NCBI GenBank assembly: GCA_021414115.1
Contig: JAIOPD010000051.1
Coordinates: 1 to 38,141 of the forward strand
Direction of reading: 5' to 3'
Length of the DNA: 38,141 bases
Origin: Planctomycetia bacterium
GTDB lineage: Bacteria > Planctomycetota > Planctomycetia > Pirellulales > UBA1268
Shown here: one piece after another, positions 78 through 34,671 of the stretch
Numbering within the stretch: the first letter of the stretch is position 1
Layout of the letters: each line of letters opens with the position of its first letter
Made by a program: the position numbers and the translations under genes
Notes under the pieces: model-generated
What the model was told of the DNA's origin: nothing
Seen by the model: only the letters and a program-made list of their open reading frames with translations
Database searches by the model: none

Positions 78-201
78 CTGCCCGTGCTCCGGGAGCCGGG
101 CTCGGCGGCCAGCGAAGCCAGGATGGCGAAGCGCAGCCGGCATCGAGTGAGCGAAGGGCACGATGCCCGCAGCGAACGTCCGGCTCCCGGGGTACGGGCA
201 G
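78..201. repeat. Imperfect 22-bp inverted repeat with 80-nt spacer
   Basis: Positions 78-99 and 180-201 are reverse complements at 20 of 22 bases, with core CCGGCTCCCGG...ACGGGCAG. The 12-mer CAGCCCCGAACC lies directly at the outer end of the right arm (199-210) and recurs at 1-12, the very edge of the window, so another copy of the unit may begin just outside. The spacer holds repeated AGCGAA words. No protein-like frame is convincing from 1 to 359. The element lies downstream of the minus-strand operon and may be a dispersed intergenic palindromic repeat; that is inference. Confidence 0.55.
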
Positions 202-323
202 CCCCGAACCGTTCACCCACCGGTGGGAACTCGAGCGTGGGCGTGCCAGGCCCGCGCGGGCACCGTCCCAGTGCCACCCGGATTCCCCGCGCTCGCGCTT
301 GGGGCTTCCCGATCGGAGGCAGC

Positions 324-341
324 GCCGGAGGTTACTCCGGC
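324..341 (-). terminator. Hairpin just after the operon's last stop codon
   Basis: GCCGGAG and CTCCGGC form a perfect 7-bp stem with a GTTA loop, starting 18 nt beyond the stop of the last minus-strand gene. No T-run follows, so it is not a textbook intrinsic terminator. It may act as a 3'-end stabiliser or be coincidental. Confidence 0.25.
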
Positions 342-359
342 CCGTTCGCTGGCCATCCG

Positions 360-1958
360 TTACTCCGCCAGGCCCGACACGATGTCCCGCGCGGCCCGTT
401 CGATCGCCCGCTGCCGCTCGGCCAACCGGTCGAGCACGGCGCGGACTTCGGGCTGGGCGGCGTGATCGGTGTCGTCGAGCACCTGCGCGAACCGCCGGGT
501 GCGGGTGTTGACCCGCATCTGCAGGGCGCGGAGCATCTTGAGCTCGGCGAGCTTGTCGACCAACGGCTGTTCCCCCGGCTCGCCCGCGCGGCCTCCGGGA
601 GCGCCGCCGGCCTCTTCTTCCTGCCGCGCTTGCTGCGCCTTCTCGACCGCCGCGAGCATCTCCTCGAGTCCAGTCACGATGTCGCCCACGATGCCGATTG
701 TCTCGCGTCCGGCGTCGCCGCGGCCCAGCCGAGCCGCCGCCTGAACGGAGTCGTCGTGGACCTGTTCGAGCGCCTGCGGGATCGCGACCGCGGTGCCGTC
801 GTCTCGCACGAGCGTCATCGCCTTCGCGGCCTCGTTCGTGATCGCCGTCTGCTCACGGCCGAGCCGGGCGGCTTCGAGCTGCCGCTCCCGCTGAGACTGG
901 CCGCCGGCCGCCGCCGCGAGCTTTTCCGCGTCGGCGAGCACGGACCGCTCGGCCCGGAGCATCCCGCGCAGCCGTGACTCCAGATTCACCAGCAGCCGCT
1001 CCACTTCCTGCTCGCGGAGTTGCCGGAGGATCTCCTCGAGCTCCGCCCGGGCGGTCTCCAGTTCCTCGATCGCCTTCTCCTGCTCGCGTCGCGCGTCGCG
1101 ACGCTTGGCGTCGTCGAGCCGCTCGCGGGCCTGTCGCATGCGGCGTTCCGCAGCCTGCAGCCGCTGCCGCGTCCGCCGCGCGCGGGCCGCATCGTCGTCC
1201 CCCTCGGCCGCTGGATCGCCAGCCGCGTCCGGTGGTTCGCCCGCGTCGCCCGACGGCTGCGCCGGCTCGCCGTCGCTCCCCTCGGCGGGCGGTGTGGAGG
1301 GCCGAAGCGGGGCACCGTCGGGAGGCGACTCCGCAGGCTTGCCCCCGTCGGCCGCGGGCTCGCGGTCGTCGATCCGCCGGGCGAAGGCGTCGATCTCTGC
1401 GCCCAGCGCACTCGCCTCGTCGGCGGCCGCTCGCTGCCGCTCGGCCAGTTTCGCCTCCTCATCGCCGGCCTCCGTCGAGCCCTCGATGTCCTTCTGTCTC
1501 GCGATCAGCTTCGTGACCCGCCCGATGAAAGCCCGCACCTCTTTCTTCGTGTCGGCGATCCGAGACTCGCCCGCCCCCGACTCGAGCAACTGGAGCAGCG
1601 ATTGAAGCTGCGCGATCGCATCCTGCTGGCTCGTGCCCGCCTTGAGCAGCTGCCCCTGTTCGAGCAGCGTCACGATCGCCGCCACCCGGTCACCCACCTG
1701 CTCCTCGCGGGCCCGTTCAAACGTGGACCGCAGGACCGCGGCGCGGCGTGGATCGGTGGCGGCGAGCAGATCGGCCAGCCGCAGGAACGACCGCTCGAGT
1801 TCACGATAGCGCTCGAGCAGTTCGGCCTCCCGGGCCGCCAATTCGGCCGTCGGCCGCGGCGTCTCGGCGGCGATGGCCGCACGGACGATCAGCCCCGTGG
1901 ACAACAGCAGCAGGAGAACGAGACGGCTCGTCCCTCGTCGACACCTCGGCTCGATCAT
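360..1958 (-). CDS. Secreted coiled-coil protein of unknown function, last gene of operon
   Basis: A 532-aa protein with an N-terminal signal peptide (basic MIEPRCRRGTSR, then a Leu/Val-rich core and an Ala-X-Ala-like site near residue 30). The rest is mostly charged alpha-helical and coiled-coil sequence: Glu/Arg/Ala-rich heptads at about 40-180 and 255-350. An acidic, Pro/Gly/Ala-rich linker separates them at about 200-255. No enzymatic motif is visible. The start overlaps the upstream gene's stop as ATGA (1955-1958), indicating translational coupling. It ends the MoxR/DUF58/VWA operon, so a periplasmic structural or scaffold role is plausible, but the function is unknown. Confidence 0.8.
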   Translation of the reverse strand: MIEPRCRRGTSRLVLLLLLSTGLIVRAAIAAETPRPTAELAAREAELLERYRELERSFLRLADLLAATDPRRAAVLRSTFERAREEQVGDRVAAIVTLLEQGQLLKAGTSQQDAIAQLQSLLQLLESGAGESRIADTKKEVRAFIGRVTKLIARQKDIEGSTEAGDEEAKLAERQRAAADEASALGAEIDAFARRIDDREPAADGGKPAESPPDGAPLRPSTPPAEGSDGEPAQPSGDAGEPPDAAGDPAAEGDDDAARARRTRQRLQAAERRMRQARERLDDAKRRDARREQEKAIEELETARAELEEILRQLREQEVERLLVNLESRLRGMLRAERSVLADAEKLAAAAGGQSQRERQLEAARLGREQTAITNEAAKAMTLVRDDGTAVAIPQALEQVHDDSVQAAARLGRGDAGRETIGIVGDIVTGLEEMLAAVEKAQQARQEEEAGGAPGGRAGEPGEQPLVDKLAELKMLRALQMRVNTRTRRFAQVLDDTDHAAQPEVRAVLDRLAERQRAIERAARDIVSGLAE

Positions 1959-4171
1959 GGCGACTCCAGAGCCTCGCGGCCGCGCTTCCGCTGTCGTTCG
2001 AGCGTCTCTTCGCGGATCTCCTCCTGCGTGCGGATCACGCCGCGGAGCCGCTCGATCACCTCGTTGACCGACTCGAGTTCGAGCATCCGCTCGAGCACCG
2101 CCCGCAGGCGGGCCAGCGCCAGATCGACCAGCCGCACCAGGCTGCGGCGATCGATCGACGAGCCACCGTTCCTCGCGGTGGCCCGGCAGGCCCGCGCCAC
2201 CGCGTCGAGCTCCCCCGCGACGACGGCCGACAGCGGTTCGGCGATCTGTGTCAGTAGCCGGGCCTCGATCTCCGGCGTGAGCAACGCGTTGTTGGCCAGC
2301 TCCCGAGCGATCCCACGAAACTCCGCGGCGATCTCGGATGTCTCGCCACTGGCGCGGACGGTCGCCTCGCCGCAGCGAGCGAGTGCCGGTGCGGAGGAGC
2401 CGGCATCGTCGGTTCGCGGTTCAGCCGTCACGATTTCGCGGGCCTTGGCAAAATCATCGATGGCCGCCTCGAACCGGCGGCGGAGAAGGATCTCGCGAGC
2501 CTCGAGCATCGCCCGCAGCGTCTCGGGGGAGACCACATCCAGCGTCCAGGTGTCGCTTCGCCCTTCGTTCGCTTCGGCATCGAGCGAGCAGGTGTCGCGG
2601 GCCGACACGACGACCTCGAGCCGCGCTCCGACGGGCAACCCAAGGCCGGCGAGCGGCACGACCTCCGGCTGAGCGGCCGGCAGCTCCACCATCGGCTCCC
2701 CGCCGCGCACGCGGGCGATCGGGAGCGTGCGTTCGAGCTCGCCCGCGGCCAGCATCACCGCGGCATTGCCGAGGGCATGGTCGTCGGAGATCACCCCCTC
2801 GATCGACAGCATCGCCTGCGGCGTGACCGCCGACGAGATGCCGACGAGCCGCACCGCAACCTCGGGCCGCGCGTCCGGTACCGCCGAAAACACGACCACC
2901 ACGGGATCGCGGTTCACCAGGCCCACGGTGTCGGTCAGATGCACGAGCACCGCGGTGTCGGCGTCGATCGCGGGGATCTGCCCGCTGATCGTCCGCGTTT
3001 CCGCTGCACCGGGCTCGAGGCTCGTTATCACCCGCTCCGCCCTCGCATCGCCGCCGGCCGGTCGCACCGCGAGCGTGGCGGCCGCGAGCGGCTTGGTCGA
3101 CGTGCAGGCAAACTCGACCGCGGCTCCGCGAGGCACCTGCACCAGTCGGCTGGCGACGAGCTCACGGGATCCGCCGCCGAGATACTCAGGCAGTGCGGCG
3201 ATGATCCTGACCTCGGCGATCGCGGGGGGATCGGCCACGACGATGCGCAGGCCGCGCAGCCGGGCATCGCCTCCCCGCACTTCGACCATGAGATCGTCAT
3301 CGATCCGCTTGAGCACATGGCCGAACAACTGCCCGGCGTCGGTGGGTCCGCCCCGGGTGCCCATGCGTTCCGTTCGCCAGCCGTCGCGGCCCCGGGTGCG
3401 GAGTTCCACGACCTCGGGCATGGTTCCCTGCGCCCGCGCCAGCACCATCACATCGACGTCGACCCCGCGGGCCACCGTGCGCACCCCGGCGGCGAAGTCG
3501 ACGGCCTCGAGCGTGACACGCCGCGGCCAGGGATCGTCGGCGAGCAGCAGCAGTCGCCGCGCCCACGCCGTCGCCACGCCCGGGCTCGACGTGGCGGCGG
3601 CCGCGGTCGCCGCCAGCGTCACGAGCGCCGTGAGCGCCACGCCCATGAGCCGCGCGCGTCGAAAGAGCGCCTCGGGCCGCACGCGATCGACGAGCGCCAC
3701 CGCCCCTGCGATCGTGCGGTCGACGAGTTCGCGATCGACAGACTCGTCCTCGCCGGCCAGGTCGCCAACCGTGGCACTGCGACGAGCGCGGGCATAGGCG
3801 ACCGCGGTCGAGAGCCCGTCGCGAAACCCGGGATGCGTCCGCTCGATCGCCAGGGCGAGCGACTCGTCGGTGAGCGGCACGCTCAGCCGGGTCACGAGCC
3901 GGGTCACGAGGATCCAGACGATGGTCGCCATGGCGGCGGCGAGGATGCAGCCCCGCACCCAGGCCGGCGGCTCGATCAGCCAGTCGATCGCCAGAGAGAG
4001 CCAGGCCGCCGCGAGGGCAGCGAGGAGGGCGAGTGCCAGCGACTCGATCCAGATCCAGCGACCTGCCTGCCGGCGAATGGAGGCGAGGAGCGCCAGCAGC
4101 GGCGCGGCTGAAACCGCCGCCTCTTCAGGGGGCGTCGCGGGCGGAACGGCGGGTGACACGGTCGCAGCCAT
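1955..4171 (-). CDS. DUF4175-like large membrane protein
   Basis: A 738-aa protein. Two hydrophobic helices lie near residues 41-63 and 73-95 and a third near 173-196. A long extracytoplasmic beta-rich middle follows (about 200-545) and then an alpha-helical, charged C-terminus with coiled-coil character (about 550-738). This plan, and the position after the VWA proteins of a MoxR cluster, fit the DUF4175-like proteins of planctomycetes and other Gram-negatives. The start lies 3 nt after the upstream stop and its own stop overlaps the next start, so all three genes are coupled. No catalytic motif is recognised. The family assignment rests on architecture and context rather than on a diagnostic motif. 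Confidence 0.7.
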   Translation of the reverse strand: MAATVSPAVPPATPPEEAAVSAAPLLALLASIRRQAGRWIWIESLALALLAALAAAWLSLAIDWLIEPPAWVRGCILAAAMATIVWILVTRLVTRLSVPLTDESLALAIERTHPGFRDGLSTAVAYARARRSATVGDLAGEDESVDRELVDRTIAGAVALVDRVRPEALFRRARLMGVALTALVTLAATAAAATSSPGVATAWARRLLLLADDPWPRRVTLEAVDFAAGVRTVARGVDVDVMVLARAQGTMPEVVELRTRGRDGWRTERMGTRGGPTDAGQLFGHVLKRIDDDLMVEVRGGDARLRGLRIVVADPPAIAEVRIIAALPEYLGGGSRELVASRLVQVPRGAAVEFACTSTKPLAAATLAVRPAGGDARAERVITSLEPGAAETRTISGQIPAIDADTAVLVHLTDTVGLVNRDPVVVVFSAVPDARPEVAVRLVGISSAVTPQAMLSIEGVISDDHALGNAAVMLAAGELERTLPIARVRGGEPMVELPAAQPEVVPLAGLGLPVGARLEVVVSARDTCSLDAEANEGRSDTWTLDVVSPETLRAMLEAREILLRRRFEAAIDDFAKAREIVTAEPRTDDAGSSAPALARCGEATVRASGETSEIAAEFRGIARELANNALLTPEIEARLLTQIAEPLSAVVAGELDAVARACRATARNGGSSIDRRSLVRLVDLALARLRAVLERMLELESVNEVIERLRGVIRTQEEIREETLERQRKRGREALESP

Positions 4172-31151: not shown

Positions 31152-33065
31152 ATGCGAACAGGGCCGGTGGAAACAGTGTCCGCTGAGGACCGGGACAACT
31201 CGAGGCTTGGCGGCGGGGCAGTCGCCGCGCCGGGCGTGCTCGTGATCCTGGGCGCCTCCGGCGACCTCACGAAGCGGCTCCTGATGCCGGCGCTCTACAA
31301 TCTCGTCTGTGACGGTCTGTTGCCCGAGGCGTGTGCTGTCATCGGCATGGCCCGCCGTTCGCTCGATACGACGGCGTTTCGTGAGCAACAGCGACAGGAC
31401 ATTCAGCGGTTCCACACGCGCCGCGACTTCGACGCCGACCGCTGGGCATGGCTGGAGTCGCGGCTCCATTACACGGCGGGCGATTTCTCCGACCCGGAGG
31501 CCTATGCGCGACTCCGTGATCTCGTGCTGGCTGTCGGCGGCGATTGCGGGGCCGCCGGCAACACGCTGCTATACCTCGCCATTTCCCCGGAGTTCTTCCA
31601 GACGGTGAACGGGCTCTTGGACGGGGCCGGGTTCACACGCCTCCCGGGCCGCCGGAAAATCATCGTCGAGAAGCCGTTCGGCAAGGACCTGCCGTCGGCC
31701 GTGGCGCTCAATCGCTCGCTGCTGACCCACTGGCGCGAGGACGAGATCTACCGCATCGACCATTACCTGGGAAAGGAAACGGTCCAAAACCTGTTGGCGT
31801 TCCGCATGGCCAACGGGATCTTCGCTCCGCTCTGGAACGCCGCGCACATCGACCACATCCAAATCTCGGCCACGGAAACCGTGGGTGTGGAGACGCGCGG
31901 CGAGTATTACGACAAGACGGGCGTGGTTCGGGACATGCTGCAGAATCACCTCATGCAGATGCTGGCCTACGTGTGCATGGAACTTCCGGTGTCGCTCCAT
32001 CCGTCGGCCGTGCGCGACGAGAAGTCACGCCTGCTCCGTTCCGTGCGGCTGCTCGACCCCACGGCCGTGGCCCGCGACTGCGTCCGCGGGCAGTATGGTG
32101 CGGGCACGAAGGCCGACGGGGCCGTCGTCTCCGGTTATCGGCAGGAGCCGAACGTCGATCCGAACTCCAATACGCCGACGTATGCCGCGATCAAACTGCA
32201 TCTCGACAACGACCGCTGGGCTGGGATGCCCGTCTACCTGCGGTCGGGAAAATCGCTCTGGAAGCGGGGGACCGAGATCGTCGTGCAGTTCCGGCCACAG
32301 GCCGGCGACGGCGGCGAGCCCAATGTGCTGATCTTCCACATCCAGCCCTTCCAGGGTGTCGAGATTCGCATCCAGGCGAAGCGGCCCGGCCCGGCGTTCG
32401 ATCTGCAGCGGGCCGGCATGCGGTTCGACTACGCCGAGACCTTCGAGGCGACGCGTGGCACGGGCTACGAGGTGCTGCTCTACAGTGCCTTCAACGGTGA
32501 TCCGACCCTCTTCTCCCGCACCGACTTCGTGGAGGCTGGATGGCGGATCGTGCAGCCGGTGCTCGATCTCTGGAACGAGACGCGGGCCGACGACTTTCCC
32601 AACTACATGGCCGGCACGTGGGGCCCGCTCGCCGCCCATGCGCTGCTCGCCCGCGACGACCGGCGCTGGCACGAGTGCATCACCCGTGAGGTGCTGCTGC
32701 GGAGCGAGTTTTTCTCACATGCACCCGCGGTCTTGCTCAACAACCTCACGCTCGCCTGTCAGCCCCGGGCGGTCAAAGCCGGGGCGACGGTCGTCGAGCG
32801 GGGTGAACAGAGCTCGGATCTGTATGTGGTCTGCCGCGGGGAACTGGAGGCGCTGGATGAGGACGGTCGCAGGCTGGGGGGCGTGAAGGAGGGCGAGTGC
32901 TTCGGCGAGATGGCGCTGCTGGACAACCGGCCGCGCAACGCCACGGTGCGGGCGGTTTCTCCATGCGATCTGCTCGTGCTGGCGGCCACCGACTTCCGGC
33001 GGATCGTCGAGGATTTTCCGGAGGCGGAGGCGCAGTTTCGCCGAATCGCCGAGCGGCGGCGGTAG
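31152..33065 (+). CDS. zwf: Glucose-6-phosphate dehydrogenase fused to a cyclic-nucleotide-binding domain
   Basis: A 637-aa protein, about 130 residues longer than usual G6PD. Residues 27-510 are a complete enzyme: NAD(P) motif GASGDLTK (34-41), EKPFGK (173-178, Lys174), substrate motif RIDHYLGKE (201-209), and DMLQNH (261-266), whose His266 corresponds to the catalytic base. It oxidises glucose 6-phosphate to 6-phosphogluconolactone. Residues about 515-637 form a CNB domain: GATVVERGEQSSDLYVVCRGE, then the phosphate-binding cassette FGEMALLDNRPRNATV (584-599) with the ligand-binding Glu586 and Arg595 kept. The fusion lies in one uninterrupted frame. AGGAG 6 nt before the ATG supports the start. 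No other pentose-pathway gene is adjacent. Allosteric control by cAMP or cGMP is inferred. Confidence 0.95.
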   Translation: MRTGPVETVSAEDRDNSRLGGGAVAAPGVLVILGASGDLTKRLLMPALYNLVCDGLLPEACAVIGMARRSLDTTAFREQQRQDIQRFHTRRDFDADRWAWLESRLHYTAGDFSDPEAYARLRDLVLAVGGDCGAAGNTLLYLAISPEFFQTVNGLLDGAGFTRLPGRRKIIVEKPFGKDLPSAVALNRSLLTHWREDEIYRIDHYLGKETVQNLLAFRMANGIFAPLWNAAHIDHIQISATETVGVETRGEYYDKTGVVRDMLQNHLMQMLAYVCMELPVSLHPSAVRDEKSRLLRSVRLLDPTAVARDCVRGQYGAGTKADGAVVSGYRQEPNVDPNSNTPTYAAIKLHLDNDRWAGMPVYLRSGKSLWKRGTEIVVQFRPQAGDGGEPNVLIFHIQPFQGVEIRIQAKRPGPAFDLQRAGMRFDYAETFEATRGTGYEVLLYSAFNGDPTLFSRTDFVEAGWRIVQPVLDLWNETRADDFPNYMAGTWGPLAAHALLARDDRRWHECITREVLLRSEFFSHAPAVLLNNLTLACQPRAVKAGATVVERGEQSSDLYVVCRGELEALDEDGRRLGGVKEGECFGEMALLDNRPRNATVRAVSPCDLLVLAATDFRRIVEDFPEAEAQFRRIAERRR

Positions 33066-33447
33066 CGGGGCCGCTGTGCCCGCGACAGGGTCCTGGCGTG
33101 CTAAAGGCAGCGGCATCCTGTGGCGGGGATGTTGCACGAGACCGGGTGGCCGCGGAGCACCTCGAAGTCAAACCGCACGCATGCCTTCACCTGATCGTTG
33201 GTGAATGTGCGCCGTGCCGAACCACGAGGGCCGAGCGTCTCGGCCCGGAAGCCGTGGGCTCGACGATCACCGTCTCCAGCGGCGTCATGTTCCCCAGACC
33301 TCTGATGCGCTCTGGTGCAGAAACCAGAAAGGCGTCGCAGCGTGTATGCGCCGCAACTCTAGAACCTGCAAACGATGACTGGAATCTTTCCAGGAATATC
33401 TGCAAAGAGGCTTGACCAAACCAAGGACTCCGTGAAAAAGAGCCTCC
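33066..33447. other. Non-coding or decayed stretch between zwf and IS remnants
   Basis: About 380 nt, becoming more AT-rich than its surroundings from about 33350. On the minus strand a frame ending near 33101 reads without stop over some 70 codons (including TFTNDQVKACVRFDFEVLRGHP), but it has no convincing start or recognised family. I assign no gene. It may be decayed coding or insertion DNA. Confidence 0.4.
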
Positions 33448-33585
33448 TCAGCAGATTCTGTGAGTGAACGCAGGCTCCGGTAATCGGCCGAGCACATGAA
33501 AGATGGCGATTTCGATGCCCCGCGGCGTCCGGAAGCCGAACGCTTTTCTGGTGGTCAGTTTCGCCTTGCCGTTGAAAATTGTCAT
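33448..33585 (-). pseudogene. C-terminal remnant of an ISL3-like transposase
   Basis: The 45-codon frame reads FNGKAKLTTRKAFGFRTPRG, then a hydrophobic IAIFHVLGRLPEPAFTHRIC and stop. This matches what I know of the C-terminal tail of ISL3-family transposases (NSKAK...R.AYGFR...LYH.LG.LPEP). The upstream catalytic DDE part is absent: the fragment begins exactly where the IS21-like left end starts, and the apparent ATG (33583-33585) is contributed by that terminus. Family call is from motif memory. Confidence 0.6.
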
Positions 33586-33593
33586 TCGGCGCG

Positions 33594-33631
33594 CCAAAAC
33601 CGGCCACTCATCGGCTCCCAAAACCGGCCAC
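33594..33631. repeat. Terminal direct repeats of the IS21-like left end
   Basis: CCAAAACCGGCCAC occurs at 33594-33607 and 33618-33631, a 24-nt period. An inverted related copy, TGGCCGGTTTTG, is at 33769-33780 inside the istA fragment. The diverged counterparts at the right end are TGACCGGCCA and TGATCCCGGTCA. They are probable transposase binding sites. Confidence 0.7.
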
Positions 33632-33706
33632 CGTGTGGGGTGTATTGGACGGAGGAATCCTCTTGTTCGAACCTTTTGGCAAGTGGCTTGATCAGATCGT
33701 AGCGGC

Positions 33707-33925
33707 TTAAGCGGTGGTATCGACGTCGGCTTTTGCCGCTTTCTGCCGTCGATTTCCGGTCGGCGCGCTGGCCGGTTTTGAAATCGGATCTCGGACCAGT
33801 CGCAGGTGCCGAGAGACCGTCTCCCGGTGAATCCCGAGCCGTCGAGCGATCTCGCGACAGGACAGTCCTGCCGATCGTAGTGAATGAATCGCCTCGACCA
33901 TCATCATCTCCAGCACATTCGCCAT
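33707..33925 (-). pseudogene. IstA N-terminal HTH fragment (IS21 transposase), 72 aa
   Basis: The frame holds a resolvase/Hin-type helix-turn-helix: IHSLRSAGLSCREIARRLGI then HRETVSRHLR, as in the N-terminus of IS21 IstA proteins. A Pro/Ala-rich linker ending in a lysine-rich tail and a stop replaces the DDE integrase core (a full IstA has about 400-500 aa). Its ribosome-binding site, AAGGAGG 7 nt before the ATG, is among the best in the window, so a small DNA-binding protein may still be made. It could bind the element's own ends and those of full-length relatives. Confidence 0.72.
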
Positions 33926-34256
33926 AACAGGCCTCCTTCCGCGGCCATGCCGCTGGAAGACCTGTAGGTCGAAATGCTTCGTGACGATGACCGGGATCAG
34001 GCGCCGATCACTGGCCGGTCACGGGCGCCGACTGACAGTCGCAGCAGGCCGAGTACGACGCGGCGTTCGGCGGCGACCACGGCGTGCATCTACCGCCTGG
34101 TGCGATGCGCTGTCTCGTCTTGTCATGGATGCCGAGGTTCGCCGCCGCGAACGGCCGAAGATCGTCGATCATTACCGTCGCCATTACGTCCTCGGCGCAG
34201 ATCCGCAGCTCCTGTGGGGGGCGATCCGCCGCGCCCTCGCCACGCGGCTTGCGCAG

Positions 34257-34518
34257 CGGGCGGCCTCTGACGAACCGCTCGGGGTGGCGGGCATGGGCGT
34301 CGGCCAGCACGGCGGCCCGCGACTCGATGGCTGCCTCGGTATGGCCGGTATGCACGACGGCTGGCGTCAGGAGCCCGATGCCCCAGTGGCGGTGCTCTTC
34401 GTTGTGCCAGTTGAAGAACCGGCGACAGAAGGAGAGGCCGTGGTCGAAGGTGGCGAACAGGTCCGGGAAGTCGGGGCGGTATTTGAGGGTCTTGAACTGG
34501 CTTTCAGAAAACGGGCCC
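34257..34518 (-). pseudogene. C-terminal remnant of an IS3-family OrfB transposase
   Basis: On the minus strand the frame reads GGPFSESQFKTLKYRPDFP, then FCRRFFNWHNEEHRHWGIGL, LTPAVVHTGH and finally HPERFVRGRP. This is the end of the IS3 integrase core (rve_3), including the third catalytic acidic residue (Glu of FSESQFK). The upstream D,D part and the usual VWIN tail are missing: the similarity stops on one side near 34518 and on the other near 34257. It is a dead fragment. The orientation is the same as the IS21 fragment. Confidence 0.8.
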
Positions 34519-34671
34519 CCGACGCGGACTCTGCCCCTTGGCGAGCGAGCGGATCGTCCGCAGATCGAGCACGCCTTTTGCTCCCCAGCCCCTTACGCGC
34601 AGGCCTGAACTCCTCGTAAAAAGCAAGGGCCTCAGCAGCCAACTCCCGGGGGCGGTAGGCGCGGGCAGCGT

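Follow-up and report, generated by a model that had tools for sequence, protein, structure and literature searches.

Phage Mu carries an internal enhancer near one of its ends, and its repressor shares the DNA-binding domain of the transposase. For the IS21 family, the available part of a report on IS5376 describes that both halves of a repeat are touched by IstA, through its domains HTH-1 (1–39) and HTH-2 (55–104), that two complete repeats are required at each end, and that assembly is cooperative (PMC10122671). Short elements consisting mainly of two ends have been described for other families; according to the accessible sections of the respective article, MITEPsy1 is thought to be derived from ISPsy2, and MITEPsy1 and MITEPsy2 have been linked to relatives of IS5 and Tn3 and not of IS21 (PMC3189936). 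In the titles and abstract openings of the literature, we have recognised no description of IS21 mini-elements or of end repeats inside istA or istB.

We have analysed a stretch of 38,141 nucleotides from a Planctomycetia bacterium (contig JAIOPD010000051.1, in full length, referred to as the window), in which positions 33580–34037 on the minus strand hold a well-bounded IS21 remnant of 458 bp, a chimera of both genes instead of a bare transposase head. This mini-element is very probably an internal-deletion derivative of an IS21-family element, formed across end-like repeats within the genes, and a decaying relic without demonstrated function.

Termini and Gene Content of the Element

As istA lies on the minus strand, the element has its left end at 34037 and its right end at 33580. 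The start at 33580 reads TGTCATTCGGCGCGCCAAAACCGGCCAC, and the other terminus, taken from the opposite side, reads TGTCAGTCGGCGCCCGTGACCGGCCAG; these IS21-type ends (TGTCA...TGACA) bound 33580–34037 exactly and are of the same kinds as those of full-length relatives. One of these relatives (L050) extends from 118 to 3031 on the planctomycete contig JAIXPT010000292, and its termini are known to the base because an exact 8-bp repeat, GCGTGTGG, flanks the element. With the ends of L050 fixed by this duplication and termini of the same kinds in the window, the two coordinates are therefore exact, just as an earlier inspection of the letters (the sequence-only reading) had placed them. The right, istB-side end (33580–33631, plus strand) holds two exact CCAAAACCGGCCAC repeats, which close R1 (about 33580–33607) and R2 (about 33608–33631), respectively. 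At the left, istA-side end (33985–34037, minus strand) the repeats have diverged, with an outer L1 at about 34010–34037 and a degenerate L2 at about 33985–34009. Two substitutions, A16G and A18G, are seen in L1; in a comparison from which the G179_C182 rows have been left out, A occupies both positions in 15 of 18 other distinct listed L-end sequences, and G at both occurs in none (0/18). Terminal inverted repeats that consist of repeated sites and terminate in TG...CA, the mark of an IS21 origin, are thus present, and both terminal regions with their internal repeats have been kept as the sequence-only reading had it, those on the left in diverged form.

Between these ends, a frame of 72 codons (33707–33925, minus strand) has been found to be an in-frame fusion of IstA and IstB. 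Six bases before its ATG lies an AGGAGG ribosome-binding site (33932–33937, minus strand), which is istA's own and is identical in the relatives L045 and L132. The IstA part, codons 1–48 with the HTH-1 region (33782–33925, minus strand), has been assigned by DNA identity to L045, which amounts to 91% over 279 aligned columns for the left half of the mini-element, and by matches to Pfam (HTH_38, E = 3.3e-9) and NCBIfam. The latter match, to NF033546 (transpos_IS21), is partial and covers model positions 2–49 with E = 2.5e-6 and 27 bits against a cut-off of 160, compared with 245.5 bits for the IstA of L050. Codons 49–55 (SKPASAP, 33761–33781, minus strand) form the junction and belong to a repeat common to istA and the istB tail; a SKPASAP-like stretch occurs in both IstA and the IstB tail of L045, L050, and L048, and the mini-element reads IstA before this stretch and IstB after it. 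Codons 56–72 with the TAA (33707–33760, minus strand) have been identified as the C-terminal tail of IstB by a whole-genome search and by alignment to relatives. The sole match of the L050 IstB protein in the whole genome is window 33698–33784 on the minus strand, which corresponds to IstB residues 255–283 at 86% identity; therefore, the frame consists of IstA 1–48, the shared SKPASAP, and the IstB tail. It ends at a TAA where L045 and L050 carry a glutamine codon.

An intact IS21 element possesses an istA coding for a DDE transposase and an istB coding for an AAA+ helper, of which only IstA codons 1–48 and the IstB tail residues are left here. The HTH frame with a very good ribosome-binding site and the loss of the DDE core of istA had already been recognised from the letters; the accompanying statements that istB is gone and that only the transposase head has been kept are not borne out by the fused IstB tail.

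A Probable Deletion Junction Between End-Like Repeats

Aligned to the DNA of L045, the mini-element falls into two pieces that overlap by 23 bases, 20 of which, AAAACCGGCCAGCGCGCCGA, are identical in both parental genes, and the excised part comprises about 2.4 kb. The deletion junction coincides with a repeat copy at about 33761–33780 that resembles an internal inverted repeat. Counts of the motif AAAACCGGCCA in four full-length relatives, with up to one mismatch, amount to 7, 6, 6, and 7 copies, where codon shuffling of the same relatives leads to expectations of 0.04, 0.04, 0.01, and 0.035. Each relative contains internal direct copies, one at istA codon ~50 and one or two in the istB tail, and one or two internal inverted copies at istA codons ~65–80; the remaining copies sit in the ends. 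Moreover, the nearest relative changes across the junction, from L045 on its left side (0.903; L050 0.853) to L050 on its right side (0.889; L045 0.794).

From these features we infer a route that starts from a parent element in which the end repeat was also present within the genes, in istA immediately downstream of HTH-1 and in the tail of istB. A recombination or slippage event involving these two direct copies could then have led to the loss of about 2.4 kb, by which IstA 1–48 would have been joined in frame to the IstB tail, with the ends, the leader, and the ribosome-binding site left in place. Since the nearest relative switches at the junction and the flanks are unrelated, the event may have joined two different copies of the element in one step, and such a recombination between two copies would explain the two unrelated flanks as well. 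The changes in the left end and the shortening of the IstB tail would represent decay after the deletion.

Further defective copies exist in the family, and 4 of the 5 distinct junctions that can be assigned (the window included, G263/G199 counted once) lie on the motif. In G151:C530, L1 is joined to the istA copy of the motif, and the HTH head is therefore missing. L1 is joined to the istB tail in G263:C24 (L161, 3447–3707), with the same junction at the same site in G199:C134 (L154) and an imperfect match to the motif on the istB side. Both genomes belong to one genus, the right end has been lost in G199, and since 975 bp of left flank are common to both at 95.6%, this mini-element has probably been inherited and not re-created. 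An inverted istA copy joined to R1 has been found in G195:C292, where the HTH head is kept and an N gap of the assembly follows further left. The deletion in G239:C18 has its junction off the motif; in G172:C72, filler without a match lies between the ends, and the junction is not assignable. As the retention of the head depends on which copies recombine, selection for the HTH head is unnecessary to assume.

Flanks, Copy Number and Probable Decay of the Window Copy

The genome is available as a 95% complete draft of 4.35 Mb in 144 contigs, in which we have found one copy of the mini-element plus one 43-bp solo end on contig C113. No istA or istB beyond the mini-element has been found elsewhere in this draft, which could lack a helper. 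The sequence-only reading had named, as the outcome that would speak for simple decay, a lone copy in a genome devoid of related elements, and within the limits of such a draft this is the situation encountered, with the solo end as the one exception. Some match to the mini-element occurs in 20 of 72 genomes of the family; among the matches listed, none in the other 71 genomes spans the junction, and a comparison with plasmid DNA has yielded no match.

A target duplication is absent from the flanks of the window copy (0 bp). Its absence discriminates poorly, as a duplication is likewise missing from 3 of the 4 distinct full-length elements for which both flanks are available (8 bp in L050; 0–1 bp in L045, L048, and L051). 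For ISPve1, another IS21-family element, insertion has reportedly been associated with deletions of adjacent DNA, according to the part of the article at hand (PMC9330008). In the window, the two sides of the mini-element abut two unrelated sequences. The left neighbour is the end of an ISL3-family transposase gene (33433–33576, minus strand), cut at 33576 and separated from the mini-element by AAT; the assignment to ISL3 has been scored on the C31 copy (298 bits), and the same IS occurs elsewhere in the genome on C31, C14, and C5. The right neighbour is a gene fragment (34038–34264, plus strand) with 79% identity to G025:C28 and 77% to G311:C166, both matches beginning exactly at 34038, and the gene is uninterrupted in G025 and G311. 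From its translation we take it to be a glycosyltransferase; the rest of the gene has not been found in this genome. A reciprocal product of an inter-copy crossover within the same genome has been considered and rejected, as the rest of this gene has not been found elsewhere.

In the wider neighbourhood, the window contains a 637-aa frame (31152–33065), which according to its translation is presumably a glucose-6-phosphate dehydrogenase with a C-terminal cyclic-nucleotide-binding-like domain, and minus-strand remnants (34264–34520), which we take for the end of an IS3-type OrfB; a 115-aa frame covering part of the latter has no Pfam match. As a separate observation, a 1.2-kb unit that opens with a bare IS21 right end is located at 70643–71870 of G000:C113 (L002, L100) and at 311–1505 of L092 (G104:C34). 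It lies at the 3' terminus of a tRNA-Arg(tct) gene, the 3' sequence of which is repeated at the close of the unit; a homologue (92%) from another genus is without the tRNA. The unit codes for two frames, one of 345 aa, in which an HTH match stays below the threshold, and one of 121 aa.

Because of the missing duplication, the unrelated flanks, the changes in the left end, the single copy, and the lack of istA and istB elsewhere, the window copy looks dead and is probably a decaying relic rather than an active mini-element. Comparison of 49 codons of the IstA part with L045 has revealed 10 synonymous and 6 non-synonymous differences, 5 of the 6 adjoining the junction, and one amino-acid change in codons 1–43, which hold the HTH core. 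Most of the divergence from L045 may predate the deletion; so small a number of amino-acid changes in the HTH core would likewise be compatible with selection acting on the frame.

Alternative Interpretations

The sequence-only reading had suggested a MITE-like element that could be moved in trans. In that case, a full-length relative would have inserted a mobile non-autonomous mini-IS21 of 458 bp as one unit, which we consider to be very unlikely for the window copy. What stands of the suggestion is a mini-IS21 with both ends, and full-length relatives are indeed common in the family, where those of G179 lie at contig ends as multi-copy elements do. Moreover, the general idea of such trans-mobilised mini-elements is not absurd, because G172, another genome of the order, harbours a mini-element of 195 bp (L101, 164–358) that has both IS21 ends, contains no long frame, and is flanked by a target duplication of 6 bp (GCCGAT); however, this element is itself present in a single copy. 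Movement in trans of the window copy is not supported, since the copy is single and without a duplication, its flanks are two unrelated sequences, L1 is changed, no istA or istB has been found elsewhere in the 95% complete draft, and no junction-spanning match is listed for the other 71 genomes. A MITE would be recognised by several copies or by a duplication showing movement as a unit, and the window copy displays neither. Clean transposition of the 458-bp unit has been rejected on the basis of the missing duplication, the unrelated flanks, and the single copy, and multi-copy behaviour of the G172 element has been rejected as well.

A second suggestion was that the 72-aa product acts as a repressor of IS21 transposition by occupying the end repeats. 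The preserved HTH, the unchanged ribosome-binding site, and the few changes in the HTH core would be expected of such a protein, yet the predicted role is weakened because, of the two domains that bind DNA, the mini-element has retained only the HTH-1 part and has lost HTH-2, its partner in IS5376, along with every assembly domain. Nor has an element to be repressed been found in the genome, and no promoter-like or terminator-like site has been detected around the mini-element (33450–34250), the search being a weak test in this phylum. As the mini-elements of G151:C530 and G263:C24 lack the head, its retention is no rule, and a working repressor would appear highly improbable. A chimeric contig formed by collapse of different IS21 copies, which the contig breaks inside these elements in G179 and the N gap in the G195 mini-element might bring to mind, has a next to negligible probability, as the element is embedded in a contig of 38 kb and is distinct from all relatives that have been found (nearest stretch among the matches listed: 94% over 159 bases of G179:C187), and as the genome contains no second copy with which it might have been collapsed.

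Internal End Repeats as a Trait of One IS21 Subgroup

An internal deletion between end-like repeats, the origin we favour for the window copy, directs attention to the parents: the remnant represents ordinary IS decay, and the repeat arrangement of its parents is less ordinary and worth following. A survey for internal repeats has been entered with 62 loci, of which 13 were dropped for having no istB or no istA beside it (L049, L168, L205, L209, L215, L225, L227, L234, L237, L242, L247, L249, and L250). After L049 had been restored by hand, 50 elements were surveyed; 2 are without end sequence, 7 without a motif common to both ends, and in 11 the motif is not strong enough to be scored, so that 30 scorable elements remain, 29 of them distinct, with L051 and L152 being one and the same. 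Two or more internal copies of the end repeat are present in 7 of these 29, one copy in 1, and none in 21, with a chance expectation of 0 to 0.17 per element. The seven elements (L045, L048, L049, L050, L051, L166, and L169), in which the copies lie at istA +145 to +235, comprise five planctomycete elements, whose ends are of the AAAACCGGCCA type, and two proteobacterial elements with ends of the AAATTCCTCCA type, which come from plasmids of Caballeronia and Paraburkholderia. Copies in the istB tail occur in the planctomycete members; those of Caballeronia and Paraburkholderia are confined to istA +153 to +214. IS1631 (L167) and the similar L211 are among the elements with too weak motifs, L167 still showing a 10-mer copy at istA +225, and the dropped L168 has 10-mer copies at +158 and +205. 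In alignments to IS5376, the internal copies are located between the HTH-1 match (query 13–47) and the next matched stretch (query 151 onwards), an interval that is 37 residues longer than in IS5376.

Internal copies of the end repeat are, accordingly, a trait of one IS21 subgroup. The letters of the internal repeats differ between the clades and match the ends of the respective element. Since IstA of the Caballeronia and Paraburkholderia elements is 35% and 34% identical to that of L050, respectively, and the repeats of each element match its own ends, the gene-borne repeat appears to keep in step with the one in the ends. As far as can be judged from the letters, the internal copies may be either functional sites or the product of sequence exchange between ends and genes. 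In this subgroup, predicted transposase binding sites would be built into the part of istA that separates HTH-1 from the DDE domain and, for the planctomycete members, into the istB tail as well. That in each clade the sites have the end sequence of the element to which they belong (AAAACCGGCCA versus AAATTCCTCCA) suggests a working internal operator or enhancer comparable to that of Mu, with mini-elements carrying the HTH head as by-products able to act on this switch; we put this forward tentatively and regard it as unlikely. If functional, the internal sites would constitute an internal control region in an IS family with a solved transposase structure and would thus be directly testable. 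They also offer a reason for internal deletions in this IS21 family tending to break at the same places.

Comparison with Known Systems

Like MITEPsy1 and MITEPsy2, as described in the accessible sections of the article, the window mini-element is short and has two ends and no transposase (PMC3189936). In contrast to MITEPsy1, which according to the same sections is multi-copy, is flanked by a 4-bp duplication, and has been seen to transpose, it is single and without a duplication (PMC3189936). With the IS21 family, as represented by IstA and IstB and by the IS5376 structures 8b4h and 8q4d, it has in common ends composed of repeated sites, TG...CA termini, the HTH-1 region of IstA, and the IstB tail, and its full-length relatives encode DDE and AAA+ proteins that score above the curated cut-offs. 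It differs by the absence of HTH-2, the DDE core, and the AAA+ domain, and by the fusion of the remnants of both genes. With phage Mu, the subgroup shares internal sites near one end that are putatively bound by the transposase, and the mini-element corresponds in coding for a protein with the DNA-binding domain of the transposase. Unlike those of Mu, the internal sites of the IS21 subgroup, known here from sequence alone, are copies of the end repeats themselves.
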